IMG/VR virus record: IMGVR_UViG_3300047546_000312
Span: 1 to 24,824 of that record
DNA from: a virus
Direction: 5' to 3' (one strand)
Length of the DNA stretch: 24,824 bases
The position numbers and the translations under genes are program-made. Each line of letters opens with the position of its first letter. The stretch's first letter is position 1. Shown here one piece after another: positions 7,482-15,395 of this stretch. The notes beneath the pieces are model-generated. The model searched no databases. It saw only the letters and a program-made list of their open reading frames with translations, and was not told the origin of the DNA.

Positions 7482-9677
7482 ATGGCTAAAATTACCCTCA
7501 CAGATCTGACTTCTCTGACAAACGAAATTACTGCTATTGCGGCTATCAACGCTAACAATGCTGCCATTGTAGCTGCACTCGAGAAGACGCTGTCACGGGA
7601 TGGGACCTCGCCCAACTCGATGGACGCTAACCTCGACATGAACAGCAACCGGATTCAGAATCTCCCGGCAGCTGTTGACTCGACCGAACCTGTCCGTAAG
7701 GCAGAGTTTGACGGCCTGATCAATCAGGTCACGACTATCTACAACAACACGGCTACCCTGTACGACAACTTTGATGATCGTTATCTGGGAGCAAAGACAT
7801 CCGATCCTGCCCTGGATAATGACGGCAATGCCCTCATTTCTGGGGCTTTGTATTTTAACAGCGTAGGCAACCGCCTGAAGACCTACAACGGTTCTTCGTG
7901 GGACTTCATCTCATCCAAGTGGTTGACTGGCTCTGGCACTCCTTCTGGGGGCACTGGCGCTGACGGAGACTTCTACCTCCGTTCCAATGGCGACGTGTAC
8001 CAGAAGTCTGGTGGTGGCTGGGGCAGTGTGCTGTTCTCAATCAAGGGTGCTCAGGGTGACGCTGGTCCTCAGGGTGCTCAAGGCCAGGCTGGTCAAACAG
8101 GTCCTAAGGGCGACAAGGGTGATACCGGTGCAACTGGTGCAACGGGTTCAACCGGCCCCACTGGTGCGACTGGTGCAACCGGTCCTGCAGGCACAGCTGC
8201 TACCATTGCTGTCGGCACCGTAACAACGGGTGCTGCCGGCTCAAGCGCTACGGTCACCAACTCTGGTACCTCAGCAGCTGCTGTATTTGATTTTTCAATC
8301 CCTAAGGGTGACAAAGGTGACACCGGAGCTACTGGTGCCACTGGTCCTCAAGGCCCTAAGGGTGACACAGGTGCTACGGGCGCTACAGGTGCCACAGGTC
8401 CAACTGGTCCTACGGGTGCAACTGGAGCCACAGGCGCTACTGGTCCTGCCGGTCCAGGTGTTCCCACAGGCGGTACCACTGGCCAGGTCCTGAAGAAGGC
8501 ATCCAACACTGACTACGACACAGTGTGGGGCACAGGCGGTGGTGGTGGAGCATCCGTTCTAGATGATCTTACTGACGTTGTTATTACGTCTGCCGCTACA
8601 GGTAACCTGCTTCGGTTTGACGGTACCAACTGGGTCAACTACGCAGACTCAAACTACGCTTCGTCGTCACACACGCACACCTTTGCGTCACTGACTTCTA
8701 AGCCGACCACAATCAGTGGCTATGGCATCACCGATGCCTACACCAAGACTGAAGTGGACACGGCTCTTGCAGGCAAGTCAGACACAAGCCACACGCACAC
8801 ATTTGCTTCGTTGACGTCTAAACCTACAACTCTTGCAGGTTATGGCATTACGGACGCTGCTTCCTCGACCCACAATCACACGGTCGACAGCCTTAGCAAC
8901 GTTACGATCACTTCCAAGGCTACCAACGATCTTCTCCGTTGGAACGGCACTGCCTGGGTAAATTATCCTGACAGCAACTACGCCGCAGCTTCGCACACGC
9001 ATACGGCTTCTCAAATCAGCGACAGCACAGCTGCTGGCCGGGCATTGCTTACCGGAGCTGACGCAGCTGCTCAACGTACGTCTCTTGGTCTTGGTTCGTT
9101 GGCTACCAAGTCAACGATTACCTCCAGTGACATCACGGACGGTACGATTGCTACGGCTGATATTGCAGACTCGGCTATTACAACAGCCAAGATCAATGCT
9201 GGTGCAGCTACGCTTGCCAAGCTTGATACCACGGGTACCTCTGGTTACGTGCTGACAGCCCAAGGCTCAGGCTCTGCTCCAGTCTGGGCAGCTGGTGCTG
9301 GCATGACATTGCTGGGTACTTTGACTACTACGTCAGGTACAACGCAAACATTGTCAAGTCTAACGCTGACTGGTTACAAATACCTCTATATTGTAGCAAA
9401 CGGCATTTCTCATAGTAACGGTGCGCAAAATGCAGCGCCAGTATTTGGTGGAAACAGTCTGTCGTCCAACAGAGCAAATACTGTAACCGTTAATTTAATT
9501 ATTATTGCAGATTTGCTTACTGGGTCGTTTCTTTACGGCGTTGCTTCAAGTGACGCTTACAACGCATCAAACTGTTATTCTGGTGGCCCGACTACTGCAT
9601 CTACTAGCGTTTCATTTAGCTGGACCAACAGCTCCTCCTTTGATGCTGGTTCAATTAAGATCTATGGGGTTTCGTAA
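7482..9677 (+). CDS. Tail fibre with collagen-like stalk and HxH repeats
   Basis: A 731-aa fibre that should form a trimer for receptor binding. The first 190 residues look like an attachment and shaft region ([20 protein letters not shown] near 48-67 is a common fibre motif). Gly-X-Y triplets run at about 189-237 and 276-326, split by a beta segment. Two related modules follow: [10 protein letters not shown]...GYGITDA at about 401 and 441, and a [22 protein letters not shown] pair about 110 residues apart. Four HxH motifs lie at H397/H399, H437/H439, H464/H466 and H505/H507, as in fibres that bind iron on the trimer axis (T4 gp37 tip). The last 120 residues are encoded by clearly more AT-rich DNA and probably form the exchangeable tip. 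In T7 the fibre gene lies after the ejection genes; here it precedes the tail tube genes. Confidence 0.88.
8046..8459 (+). repeat. Two blocks of collagen-like Gly-X-Y coding repeats
   Basis: Near-perfect 9-base periodicity of the type GGTGCNACN, encoding [12 protein letters not shown] triplets, covers 8046-8192 and 8307-8459. They are separated by 114 bases coding a non-collagen beta segment. Such repeats expand and contract easily and give long open frames on the other strand and in the second frame, which are artefacts. Confidence 0.85.
8571..9005 (+). repeat. Internal duplication in the tail fibre shaft
   Basis: At protein level residues about 364-400 and 472-508 are copies of one module (ITS-AT-LLRFDGT/WNGT-WVNY--SNYA---SHTHT). 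The segment [20 protein letters not shown] occurs twice, 40 residues apart. The DNA copies have drifted at third positions, so the duplication is old and kept by selection on the protein. Confidence 0.75.
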
Positions 9678-9950
9678 ATGGAGCACGTAATTGTTAATGC
9701 AACTACGGGTGAAACCACAGTAGTTCCTTTTACATCTGAAGAACTTGCAGAAGCTAATGCAAAAATCTTGGAGCTAGCTTGGAAGGAACTTAGAGACGCT
9801 AGGAATTCACTGTTAGCCTCCTCAGATTGGACTCAAGTTAAAGACGCTCCGGTAGATCAAGAAGCGTGGGCTGTATACCGTCAAGCTCTTAGAGATTTGC
9901 CCAGCAATACACAAGACCCTCTTAACGTAATTTGGCCGAGTACTCCATAA
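9678..9950 (+). CDS. Tail fibre assembly chaperone-like protein
   Basis: A 90-aa protein directly after the fibre gene (its ATG touches the fibre stop). The C-terminal half follows the pattern of tail fibre assembly and tail assembly chaperone families: LRDARNSLLASSDWTQVKDAP, then WAVYRQALRDLP and a final WPSTP. These small proteins help fold or attach the fibre and usually travel with the fibre tip. In keeping with that, the gene shares the AT-rich composition of the fibre's last 120 codons. A GGGG at about 9666 is the only ribosome site candidate, so translation may be coupled to the fibre. The stop overlaps the next gene as TAATG. Confidence 0.78.
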   Translation: MEHVIVNATTGETTVVPFTSEELAEANAKILELAWKELRDARNSLLASSDWTQVKDAPVDQEAWAVYRQALRDLPSNTQDPLNVIWPSTP

Positions 9951-10303
9951 TGCTAGAAGAACTTATCTGTAGAACATTCTATACACGTAACGAAGCTCAC
10001 CTTGCTCATTGGCGTACAAAGAGTTTTGCCGAGCACAAGGCTCTTGATGAGTTCTACAACGGTGTGATCGAGACAATCGACGAGATTGTTGAGGCGTACC
10101 AGGGCTCGTTTGGCATCATTAAGGAGCTGCCTGAGGAAGAGTACAAGGATATGGAAATCCTTGAGCGTCTTCAGGACGACGCCAAGTGGATTAACAAGAA
10201 CCGCTCCAAGATTGCCCGTAACGTTCCGTCCCTTGAGAACCTGGTCGACGAACTGACCGATCTCTACCTGACGACAATCTACAAGCTCAAATTCCTCAAG
10301 TGA
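9950..10303 (+). CDS. Small Dps/ferritin-like helical protein with ferroxidase ligands
   Basis: A 117-aa, all-helical protein. Residues 17-48 read like the first two helices of Dps: AHLAHW, then H29, D33, D44 and E48. The spacings H29-(+4)-D33-(+11)-D44-(+4)-E48 equal those of the Dps ferroxidase site (H63, D67, D78, E82 in E. coli Dps). H20 before Trp21 corresponds to H51, with the intervening loop three residues shorter. Two more helices (about 62-82 and 92-115) complete a four-helix bundle, giving a protein some 50 residues shorter than Dps. It recalls small phage ferritin-like proteins (DUF5856, from memory). I chose ATG 9950, overlapping the previous stop, over TTG 9932. DNA protection or iron binding is inference; a structural role is the alternative. 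Confidence 0.65.
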   Translation: MLEELICRTFYTRNEAHLAHWRTKSFAEHKALDEFYNGVIETIDEIVEAYQGSFGIIKELPEEEYKDMEILERLQDDAKWINKNRSKIARNVPSLENLVDELTDLYLTTIYKLKFLK

Positions 10304-10311
10304 GATAACAA

Positions 10312-10800
10312 ATGGCCGCTCCCTGGCTTGAGGTAGCCACCAGGCTCCTCAACACTAAGGAGCTACCTGGATCTGCCAACTCCCCCATCATCCTTTCCTG
10401 GGCTCAGAAACTTGGTGGTTGGGTAGCATCCTTCTACAAAGAAGATTCCGTCCCGTGGTGTGGGTTGTTTGTAGCCCACTGTCTCAGTGAGGCAGGTATC
10501 CCAGGACTGCCAAAGAACCCTCTCAGCGCCCTTGCGTGGAAAGACTGGGGTAGCCCTACCGATCCAAGAGAAGGGGCCCTGTTGGTCTTCCAAAGGCCAG
10601 GAGGAGGCCATGTAGGATTCTACGTCGGTGAAAGATCCGATGCCTACAGGGTCAGAGGTGGAAACCAGAGTGACTCGGTGTGTGACACCTGGGTTGCCAA
10701 AGACAGACTGGTTGGCTGTCGGTGGCCCATTGGGACCCCAGTCTTCGGTAACAAGATAATCCTCACCGACAAGGGTGAGCTCTCCAAAAACGAGGCATAA
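10312..10800 (+). CDS. Endolysin, CHAP/NlpC-P60-like (TIGR02594 type)
   Basis: A 162-aa cysteine hydrolase expected to cut peptidoglycan amide bonds at lysis. The papain-like triad is visible: C50 in VPWCGLFVAHCL, H100 in GGGHVGFYVGE and N118 in VRGGNQSDSV. The wider pattern (SVPWCGLFVAHCL..., then GALLVFQRPGGGHVGFYVG) fits the TIGR02594 family of phage amidases or endopeptidases. No signal peptide is present, so export depends on the holin encoded next. The ATG at 10312 has a weak GAG site. The next gene starts one base after the stop. Confidence 0.85.
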   Translation: MAAPWLEVATRLLNTKELPGSANSPIILSWAQKLGGWVASFYKEDSVPWCGLFVAHCLSEAGIPGLPKNPLSALAWKDWGSPTDPREGALLVFQRPGGGHVGFYVGERSDAYRVRGGNQSDSVCDTWVAKDRLVGCRWPIGTPVFGNKIILTDKGELSKNEA

Positions 10801-10801
10801 C

Positions 10802-11209
10802 GTGGCCGGCTTAATCGACATCAGCAATGCTCTCCTGCCGGTCATCAACCGGGTGTTGGACCTGATCCCTGACCCTGCTGCCAAGCAGAAGGCTCAGTTG
10901 GAGATGCAGGCCAAACTCATTGAAATTGTGACCACGGAGTCTCAGAACCAGGCAGAAATCAACAAGATCGAAGCCGGTAATACCAACCTGTTTGTTTCTG
11001 GCTGGCGTCCAATGATTGGATGGGTATGTGCCGTGAGCTTTGGTTGGTTCTACATCGGTGCCCCGTTAGCCGTGTGGATCATGTCCATCTTTGGCGTACA
11101 CACCGATCTTCCCATCTTCGATAAGAATAGCCTCATGGAGCTGACGTTTGGAATGCTTGGCATGGGTGCTCTTCGCTCCTTTGACAAGTGGAAAGGCACA
11201 GCCAAATGA
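10802..11209 (+). CDS. Holin, 3-TM GTA type
   Basis: A 135-aa inner-membrane protein that should form the lesion releasing the endolysin. An N-terminal amphipathic part (DLIPDPAAKQKAQLEMQAKL) precedes a linker. GWRPMIGW at about residue 67-74 leads into hydrophobic segments (about 71-98 and 111-126). This arrangement, with the GWRP motif, is characteristic of the holin family first noted in gene-transfer agents. I set the start at GTG 10802 with GAGG at 10792-10795, instead of an upstream ATG at 10775 inside the endolysin gene. The end overlaps the next gene by ATGA. Confidence 0.83.
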   Translation: MAGLIDISNALLPVINRVLDLIPDPAAKQKAQLEMQAKLIEIVTTESQNQAEINKIEAGNTNLFVSGWRPMIGWVCAVSFGWFYIGAPLAVWIMSIFGVHTDLPIFDKNSLMELTFGMLGMGALRSFDKWKGTAK

Positions 11210-12678: not shown

Positions 12679-14937
12679 ATGGCCCGTAACTCCCAGATCT
12701 CTGCTGAAAACGGATTCATCCGTGGTCTTGTATCTGAGGCCACGGGCCTTAATTTTCCTGAGAAAGCAGCGACAGACACTCTTGACTGTCTCTTTGAGCA
12801 GACCGGGATTGTCTCTCGCCGTCTCGGGTTCAACTATGAATCAGGTTACTCAACTGCTTCAGTAACCCGTGACAGTTCCGTAGTGCGTGAATACATGTGG
12901 GAAGCTGTTGCCGGTACTGGTACGACCAATTTTGTCGTCGTCCAGATGGGAAGCGTACTTCACTTTTACAACATTGGTACGACGTCAACACTCAGCACCA
13001 ACAAGAAAAGCTTTACGATTAACCTGACGACCAAGAAGGTTTCTACGGTCACTGATGCAGCTGTCGCTTCTAATTTCTGTCAGTTTGCTGCAGGCTTTGG
13101 TCAGCTGTTTGTGGTGCACCCTTTCTGCGATCCGTTCTACGTTGAGTATGATCCGGTAGGCGACACAATTACCAGCGCCACAATCAACATCACTATTCGT
13201 GATTTTAAAGGTGTTGACGATGGTTTAGCTGTTGATAACCGGCCATCAACCTTGAGCGTTGAGCACAAATACAACCTGTTTAACCAAGGTTGGTTTGTTG
13301 AAAGCGTTTCGACCACTAACTTTGGTGCAGGTGATACCAACCCGCTGTGGGCATGGGATCAGGGCAAAGGTAACTTCCCAAGCAATGCGGACGTTTGGTG
13401 GCTGTCTAAAGACGCGAATAACGACTTTAACAAAAGCTGGATCAACAAATTTGACCCAGGCACAACCCCGGCCCCCAAGGGACACTTTGTTCTAAACGTA
13501 TTCTATCAGCGTCGTGGTAAGTCAAAGATCACTACGTCGTCTGCCTCAGCTGGTACAGTGACGGTTACGACTGAATTGCCGCATATGCTAGTGCCTGGCA
13601 CGACAGTCAAGATTGAGAACTGCAACATTGCCGGCTACAACAACACATTTACTGTAGCAAGTGTTCCTGCTCACGATCAATTTACATTTAGCTCGGCTAC
13701 CACTGGTACGGCTACCACCGGTGACGTTTATCCAAACACACTGACAATTACGTCCTCAGGTCTAAATCGTCCGTCTGCAGTGGCGTTCTACGCTGGCAGA
13801 GTGTTTTACAGCGGTGTCAATGCTCACGAGTATAACAACTTTGTGTACTTCACCAAGATCCTCGAGGACGACAAAGACTACGGCTACTGCCAGCAGGTGA
13901 ACGACCCTACGTCTCAGGAGAACAGCGATCTGCTCCCTAGTGACGGTGGATACGTCAACATCCCTGAAATGGGTAACTGCATCCGTATGGTTCCGGTAGG
14001 CACTGACCTGTTGATCTTTGCAACCAACGGCATCTGGGCAATCTCAGGCGGCAAAGGTTTGAGCTTCACAGCTAACGACTATGCCGTTCGTCGCCTGTCG
14101 ACTGTTCCTGCAATTAGCCCGACGTCATTTGTGGTGGTCGATGGCTACCCAATGTTTTGGAACAATAATGGCATCTACGTCGCCAAACCTGACCAGATGG
14201 GTGAGCTGTCGATTCAGAGCATTACGGACTCTACGATCCGTACGTGGTTCATGAACATTCCTGCGGAGTCTAAGTTTTACGCCAAGGCAATGTACGACCC
14301 ACTCAAGCGCATTGTGTCCTGGCTCTACAGATCGTCTGCAGCATCAGGTGCTGACAACAAGTTTGAATACGACCGTATTCTGAACCTCAACGTTTTGACT
14401 GGTGCGTTTTATCCGTATTCAGTTCAACAGTCGTCAGGGTATCCGACAGTCAACGGTGGTGTGGTGATCAGCTACGCTGGCAATTACGCTCCGGTGCCTA
14501 AGTTCCTGACTACAAAGCTGACCTCTGGCACGACCTACACAATGACCTGGAGCGAGCTCCGGGCTACGACCTACAAGGACTGGGACGTTACAGGGACAGG
14601 GTTGGACTACACCAGCTACGTCAACACCGGCTTCAAGGTGCTCGGTGGTGCGGTGACCAAGTTCCAGCAGAACTACGTTCTGGTGTACTGCAAGGCCGAC
14701 AGCAATGCCTCTTTGAAACTCCGGGGCAAGTGGGACTTCAGTAACAGCAGTAACAGCAACCTGTGGACTGCCAATCAAGAAGTCTACATTCATCAAAGCA
14801 ACAGAGACTACCTCTCCCGCCGTATCAAAATCAGAGGGCAGGGGCTTGCGTGTCAGCTGGCATTTACCAGCACTACGGGCAAGCCGTTCTACCTCATTGG
14901 CTGGGGTGTTGCAGAGTCTGGGAATACTCAACCGTAA
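12679..14937 (+). CDS. Tail tubular protein B (T7 gp12-like nozzle)
   Basis: The nozzle of the podovirus tail, 752 aa (T7 gp12 is 794). The N-terminus (GFIRGLVSEATGLNFPEKAATDTLDC) and the phrase LNRPSAVAFYAGRVFYSGVN near residue 370 are typical for the family. So are the repeated beta-propeller-like blocks (IRMVPVGTDLLIFATNGIWAISGG; SPTSFVVVDGYPMFWNNNGIYV). The protein is mostly beta with few charged helices. It follows tubular A as in T7, and its stop overlaps the next start as TAATG. No strong ribosome site is seen before ATG 12679. Confidence 0.9.
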   Translation: MARNSQISAENGFIRGLVSEATGLNFPEKAATDTLDCLFEQTGIVSRRLGFNYESGYSTASVTRDSSVVREYMWEAVAGTGTTNFVVVQMGSVLHFYNIGTTSTLSTNKKSFTINLTTKKVSTVTDAAVASNFCQFAAGFGQLFVVHPFCDPFYVEYDPVGDTITSATINITIRDFKGVDDGLAVDNRPSTLSVEHKYNLFNQGWFVESVSTTNFGAGDTNPLWAWDQGKGNFPSNADVWWLSKDANNDFNKSWINKFDPGTTPAPKGHFVLNVFYQRRGKSKITTSSASAGTVTVTTELPHMLVPGTTVKIENCNIAGYNNTFTVASVPAHDQFTFSSATTGTATTGDVYPNTLTITSSGLNRPSAVAFYAGRVFYSGVNAHEYNNFVYFTKILEDDKDYGYCQQVNDPTSQENSDLLPSDGGYVNIPEMGNCIRMVPVGTDLLIFATNGIWAISGGKGLSFTANDYAVRRLSTVPAISPTSFVVVDGYPMFWNNNGIYVAKPDQMGELSIQSITDSTIRTWFMNIPAESKFYAKAMYDPLKRIVSWLYRSSAASGADNKFEYDRILNLNVLTGAFYPYSVQQSSGYPTVNGGVVISYAGNYAPVPKFLTTKLTSGTTYTMTWSELRATTYKDWDVTGTGLDYTSYVNTGFKVLGGAVTKFQQNYVLVYCKADSNASLKLRGKWDFSNSSNSNLWTANQEVYIHQSNRDYLSRRIKIRGQGLACQLAFTSTTGKPFYLIGWGVAESGNTQP

Positions 14938-15395
14938 TGCAAATTTCACTAGCGACACGAGATGACATTCCCGTTCTTGTTAAACTTGCTGAAGATCTGA
15001 TCAAAACAACCAAATACAGTATTCTTCAGTTTTCTGCTGACAAAGTCGAAAAAGCGCTACTTGGCACCTTTGAACAAGGTCAAACAAAGTCTGTATGTTT
15101 GGTTGCTAAGAAAGACGGAAAAATTGTTGGGTCGATCATTGGCTACAAAGATCAAACCCCATTTTCAGAAGATCCAGTTGCTTTTGAATTTTTATGGTGG
15201 TGTCAGCCAGGAACCAGTAAGCGTCAACTCCTTAAACTCTACGAAGGATACGAGTACTGGGCAAAGAACGTAGCTAAATGTAAAGCGTTACTTGTCGGTC
15301 AGTTGCATTTTAAACATGCACCTGAAAACTACTGGACAAGACAGAATTTTGTAAAGTGTGAAGAGTACTACTTAAAGGACTTATCATGGGAATAG
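14937..15395 (+). CDS. GNAT-type acetyltransferase-like protein (T7 gp13 position)
   Basis: A 152-aa protein with a GNAT-like plan: an N-terminal strand and helix (ISLATRDDIPVLVKLAEDL), then a strand pair VCLVAKKDGKIVGSIIGY (about 53-70). FEFLWWCQPGTSKRQLLKLYEGYEYWAK follows where the acetyl-CoA loop normally lies, and there is a late strand. The usual Q/R-x-x-G-x-G/A loop is degenerate (PGTSKRQ), so catalysis is uncertain. In T7-like genomes the gene after tubular B is gp13, often annotated as an acetyltransferase, and this matches that slot. The ATG at 14937 overlaps the tubular B stop; a longer reading from 14763 runs inside that gene and is rejected. The DNA is AT-richer than the flanking genes. 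The end overlaps the next gene by 10 bases. Confidence 0.72.
   Translation: MQISLATRDDIPVLVKLAEDLIKTTKYSILQFSADKVEKALLGTFEQGQTKSVCLVAKKDGKIVGSIIGYKDQTPFSEDPVAFEFLWWCQPGTSKRQLLKLYEGYEYWAKNVAKCKALLVGQLHFKHAPENYWTRQNFVKCEEYYLKDLSWE

Follow-up and report, generated by a model that had tools for sequence, protein, structure and literature searches.

A 117-residue DUF5856 protein of a podovirus late gene cluster is probably a divergent, shortened viral Dps with an inter-subunit metal site

Dps is a bacterial protein that takes up iron and protects DNA. Its ferroxidase motif reads H-x11-H-x3-D-x10-D-x3-E, and its ferroxidase site is formed between two antiparallel subunits. In a stretch of viral DNA of 24,824 nucleotides (IMG/VR record IMGVR_UViG_3300047546_000312, positions 1 to 24,824; the whole stretch is called the window below), an open reading frame for 117 amino acids raises the question of whether a virus has kept such a site in a shorter protein, which we call mini-Dps. 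The original prediction, made from the letters alone, had aligned H20, H29, D33, D44 and E48 of this protein with the five Dps ligands.

The window is a podovirus late region that carries genes for a portal-like head-tail connector, the capsid, a tail fibre, fibre assembly, mini-Dps, a hydrolase, a holin, tail proteins and a tail lysozyme. The features around and within the mini-Dps gene are as follows.

7482..9677, plus strand: tail fibre with collagen-like repeats, a neighbour
9678..9950, plus strand: tail fibre assembly protein, a neighbour
9948..9952, plus strand: TAATG, in which the stop of the upstream fibre-assembly gene overlaps the mini-Dps start
9950..10303, plus strand: mini-Dps gene (DUF5856 / PHROG 858), 117 amino acids, predicted four-helix bundle
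9998..10000, plus strand: codon of H17, three residues before H20; His in 79 of 81 non-redundant members
10007..10009, plus strand: codon of H20, equivalent to H51 of E. coli Dps; 81 of 81
10034..10036, plus strand: codon of H29 (Dps counterpart H63); His in 81 of 81
10046..10048, plus strand: codon of D33 (Dps counterpart D67); not conserved, Asp in 9 and Glu in 5 of 81
10079..10081, plus strand: codon of D44 (Dps counterpart D78); Asp in 81 of 81
10091..10093, plus strand: codon of E48 (Dps counterpart E82); Glu in 81 of 81
10312..10800, plus strand: peptidoglycan-hydrolase-like protein, likely an endolysin; tail-lysozyme end of PHROG 1259, weak CHAP match
10775..11209, plus strand: holin with three transmembrane segments (PHROG 3427, GTA_holin_3TM)

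Translation of 9950-10303 gives 117 amino acids from the ATG at 9950, and the position of this start codon is the same in relatives. The TAATG overlap likely reflects translational coupling within one late operon.

The family to which the protein belongs was clear. In Pfam it matched DUF5856 (PF19174) with an E-value of 6e-20 and 72.5 bits against a cut-off of 34.6, and the match covered the whole model (positions 1-94 of 94). It also fell into PHROG 858 (E 1.2e-20), and no Pfam assignment to Ferritin (PF00210) was obtained for it. The earlier statement that related phage families are annotated only as of unknown function was correct for Pfam, which gives no function, but not for PHROG 858 and RefSeq, which carry the label 'starvation-inducible transcriptional regulator', nor for one relative that has been modelled as ferritin (PMC10892097).

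With tblastn, relatives were found in 1,302 phage records and no match was found to plasmids; a scan based on alignment detected a family member on at least 595 IMG/VR contigs. DUF5856 occurred in 2 of 398 cellular genomes of one bacterial phylum, and 9 loci, mostly on metagenome-assembled contigs, were found in 84,980 species genomes. From these counts we rejected the idea of a host or plasmid gene. One of the very few cellular members lies in a bacterial isolate genome, on a contig of Microvirga alba (L104), and is probably a prophage gene. Another member, in MW202711 (L190:4001-4354), carries the label 'alkyl sulfatase dimerization', which is almost certainly wrong.

The motif of mini-Dps reads H20-x8-H29-x3-D33-x10-D44-x3-E48. 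That is, the order and spacing of the five residues agree with those of the Dps ligands, as originally claimed, except that the A-B loop is three residues shorter; the HMM alignments place the deficit in this loop. We then compared 81 members with pairwise identities below 80%, the most distant of which share 20% identity with the window protein. The sole fully invariant columns in all 81 were H20, H29, D44 and E48. In a larger set of 107 sequences these four residues were present in all 107, and H17, at a position where many Dps also have His (LHNxHW), was present in 106. Among about 10,300 open reading frames the four-ligand pattern was found in only a handful of frames outside the family, and the chance that four random columns of the 117 would be exactly these four is about 1.3e-7. 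The rarity of the pattern in these reading frames, together with its invariance in the 81 members, indicates that it did not arise by chance.

The claim of a five-ligand site stood only in part. All five residues are present in the window protein and four of them are invariant, but D33 has an acidic counterpart in only 14 of the 81 members: the column holds Gly in 34, Asn in 20, Gln in 10, Asp in 9, Glu in 5 and other residues in 3. The T4-type RI.-1 protein keeps Asp there. Columns 33 and 37 (window 10046-10048 and 10058-10060) are one helical turn apart. Among 31 members, both columns were acidic in 3, only column 33 in 8, only column 37 in 15 and neither in 5, so that the two acids tend to exclude each other (Fisher p 0.02, before phylogenetic correction). 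This exclusion suggests that the fifth ligand may have shifted by one helical turn, and we regard a relocation from 33 to 37 as a lead only, drawn from aligned sequences.

The A-B loop is longer in six members. Five of them, namely RB49 (HFGVTGPGSYAKH) and the members at loci L034, L042, L051 and L086, have the exact Dps spacing and a Dps-like loop. The rI.-1 gene of RB49 (L182:1405-1803) encodes a full-length Dps A-B loop, HFGVTGPGSYAKHKALEEFY, with the exact Dps spacing and Glu at the fifth position, and the best NCBIfam match of its product is Dps, although this match falls short of the cut-off (E 0.008). Because a full-length Dps-like loop is found in these five members, the short loop of most members looks like a later deletion.

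A single-sequence search against PDB sequences was uninformative, and profiles were required. The best match of the family HMM was HP-NAP (8e-4), followed mostly by Dps proteins; the HMM of a wider alignment matched a Dps-family protein at 2.4e-4, HP-NAP at 5e-4 and MrgA at 1.5e-3. When the family was aligned by hhalign with 31 Dps sequences, the value was 91.8% with a score of 43.9, and it was 93.1% for the wider family. In contrast, reversed Dps gave 0.3-0.5%, 30 column-shuffled Dps profiles reached a score of at most 18.5, and ferritin and bacterioferritin each gave less than 1%, for which reason membership in these two groups, whose di-iron site inside the bundle is marked by ExxH motifs, was rejected. 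Thus the predicted relationship to Dps was found as a specific profile match. The profile alignments placed H20, H29, D44 and E48 onto H51, H63, D78 and E82 of Dps, and left exactly three residues of the Dps A-B loop unpaired.

The predicted fold agreed with this match. An AlphaFold2 monomer model built with 54 relatives (mean pLDDT 95.6, pTM 0.88) has helices at residues 2-22, 26-54, 70-83/85-88 and 93-115, which is the four-helix bundle that had been expected. In Foldseek, the first 18 matches in the PDB were all Dps with probabilities of 0.99-1.00, and the top match was MsDps2 (probability 1.00, TM 0.76 by query length); the E-values of these matches start at 0.026 and, at about 0.02-0.05, are weak by themselves for a helical bundle. 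A second model, of the T4-type RI.-1 with 46 relatives, had a pLDDT of 93.4 and its PDB matches were also mostly Dps. Taken together, the profiles and the models support the view that mini-Dps shares the Dps/ferritin-like fold and has a specific relationship to Dps at the profile level.

The model also shows what has been lost. The BC helix of Dps is absent from it, and residues 55-69 form a helix-free loop. In Dps this helix lies between helices B and C and helps to form the dimer. Since it is missing, a Dps-type assembly of mini-Dps is uncertain, and the assembly may differ from a dodecamer.

The family thus resembles Dps (E. coli Dps, HP-NAP, MrgA, Listeria Dps, MsDps2) in the predicted four-helix bundle, in the two His and the Asp/Glu that lie in register, in the His of the LHNxHW type that is often present, and in the full-length V/A-x-G-x-G/N loop of some members. 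It differs from E. coli Dps in being about 50 residues shorter and in having neither an N-terminal tail nor a BC helix, and from Dps in general in being viral, in the A-B loop that is three residues shorter in most members, and in the usual loss of the D67 equivalent.

We therefore think it probable, from the sequences and the predicted models, that the gene encodes a divergent, shortened viral Dps with an inter-subunit metal site, which would be made late and would be associated with the virion in some phages. That the conserved residues form a metal site is well supported by their pattern of conservation; that this site would use iron, have ferroxidase activity and sit in a shell is our inference. 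In the model, H17, H20 and H29 would lie toward one end and D44 and E48 toward the opposite end of one helix (residues 26-54). H29 and D44 are 15 residues apart, which corresponds to about 22 Angstrom by the standard helix rise, and because of this distance the His group and the acid group cannot meet within one subunit. We suppose that two antiparallel subunits, arranged as in Dps, would each contribute one half-site and that Fe(II) would be bound there. The fifth acid (the D33 equivalent) is mostly replaced in the family, perhaps by the acid at 37 or by H17. The protein would be synthesized late alongside the virion and lysis proteins, and it would bind and probably oxidise iron, so that newly made genomes or virions would be spared Fenton chemistry. 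It may reside in the particle in some phages, and DNA binding would not be required.

The name given by RefSeq and PHROG suggests a different role, that of a DNA-binding or transcription regulator, and DNA protection by binding had also been considered originally. E. coli Dps is acidic overall and yet binds DNA by a Lys/Arg tail. The window protein is acidic as well (pI 5.0, net charge about -7), but no basic N-terminal tail is seen in the model, where helix A begins at residue 2, and the protein has no DNA-binding domain. The proposal of DNA binding was not supported. The name was probably inherited from similarity to Dps and is misleading; a DNA-binding regulator is without support on these grounds, and we consider it highly improbable.

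Next we considered the virion. LIMEstone1 ORF78 has been reported as a 'confirmed structural protein' on the basis of 3 peptides and 28% coverage (PMC3296691), Sajous1 gp217 was detected with 10 spectra in CsCl-purified phage and was assigned to ferritin by a Phyre2 model (PMC10892097), and phiR1-37 g280 is annotated as structural. The suggested virion association is supported for relatives by the first two reports, where each detection rests on few peptides and carry-over is possible. Both proteins, from Ackermannviridae, belong to the same family; they come from contractile-tail virions unlike that of the window phage, have G33 instead of D33, and are encoded next to virion-protein and primase genes, not lysis genes. 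As relatives have been found in particles, the presence of the window protein in its virion is plausible by analogy.

These detections could also be explained if the protein were an accessory virion protein derived from Dps, in which a metal such as Zn or Fe is only structural and stabilises the oligomer, and which has no ferroxidase or protective role. The frequent loss of D33, the missing BC helix and the position of the gene among tail, portal and terminase genes would fit such a protein. However, strict invariance is confined to the four ligands of the Dps ferroxidase site, for which selection on redox-iron chemistry is a better explanation than a structural ion, and DUF5856 members occur across very different virion types. 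We therefore consider a purely structural metal unlikely. For Sajous1 gp217 an aid to entry was proposed, the 'Ferrojan horse', in which an iron-loaded tail protein exploits bacterial iron uptake (PMC10892097). In the same study, infection efficiencies were similar on tonB, feoB and tonB feoB strains, and Dps-type proteins keep iron inside and do not display it; this explanation seems to us scarcely credible.

The lysis genes beside mini-Dps raise another possibility, namely that it is an accessory of lysis timing like T4 RI.-1, which would modulate the holin or antiholin, possibly in response to iron or peroxide. When T4 rI.-1, a gene of the rI operon, is over-expressed, lysis inhibition collapses slightly later (Golec et al. 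2010, as cited in PMC6832632). Linkage of rI and rI.-1 was seen in all five Straboviridae inspected (T2, RB49, Merlin, PMBT1 and Aeromonas L9-6), and a family member adjoins lysis genes in the window, in Caulobacter phage GB2A, in ctfPj964 and in P19250A. In 29-31 environmental loci, however, tail, portal, terminase or scaffold genes made up most of the neighbours, and lysis genes were rare; RaK2 has an RI.-1-like protein without the T holin or RI (PMC3622015); and the effect in T4 was slight and came from over-expression. A general linkage to lysis, which had seemed strong in the window, GB2A, ctfPj964, P19250A and T4, was dropped to a minor alternative because of this tally of neighbours, and we consider it improbable. 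Tail, portal and terminase neighbours, for their part, say little about iron.

Three observations on the surrounding genes are added here. In the inspected Straboviridae (L017, L182-L185), the gene for the rI antiholin overlaps rI.-1. The hydrolase at 10312-10800 matches the C-terminal end of a tail-lysozyme/baseplate-hub family and is a putative endolysin or virion enzyme. At 14841-15395, directly after a tail appendage gene in the late structural cluster, there is a gene for a GNAT-type acetyltransferase (PHROG 1249, 3e-12).

Gut and Lactobacillus phages encode full-length Dps; these proteins were assigned to the Dps enzyme family, and a role in coping with oxidative stress was suggested for them (Benler et al. 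2021, PMC8008677). Compared with those proteins, DUF5856 is shorter and much more widespread in lytic phages, and it is not named in the Dps passages of that paper. Phage-encoded Dps is thus already known from gut and Lactobacillus phages (PMC8008677), and a ferritin model of one DUF5856 member has been published (PMC10892097). In the openly accessible literature we found no mention of DUF5856, and no report that describes DUF5856 or T4 RI.-1 as Dps-like with a metal site. The family includes T4 RI.-1 (MobD.6), and the window protein, a full-length member from a podovirus, is one that retains D33. With a viral Dps, a very common phage protein would gain a concrete and testable biochemical identity, and so would T4 RI.-1, which is encoded in the best-studied lysis-regulation operon and has so far lacked a mechanism. 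Should members of the family oxidise or store iron, ordinary lytic infections, and some virions too, would involve iron and peroxide chemistry. The invariant four-residue set offers a guide to informative T4 mutants.

We may go one step further and speculate, doubtful as it is, that these proteins form a virus-born branch of Dps, spread over T4-type phages, podoviruses, huge phages and perhaps algal and amoebal giant viruses. Its inter-subunit iron site would be re-arranged (H17/H20/H29 with D44/E48 and an acid that slides between 33 and 37), and it would act inside or on the virion, or couple the timing of lysis to the iron or peroxide state by way of RI.-1, encoded in the T4 rI operon. In BFVD, the mini-Dps model matches predicted structures of Pithovirus LCPAC404 and Fadolivirus, and a prasinovirus clade has been reported with the same PHROG-type name (PMC11408933); on these Foldseek matches and the annotation in one paper, the family may extend to giant viruses. 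BFVD also contains phage proteins of 432-754 amino acids that match at full query coverage and carry the labels prohead protease, NUDIX hydrolase, ParB/sulfiredoxin or Dps, which suggests fusions or misjoined models.
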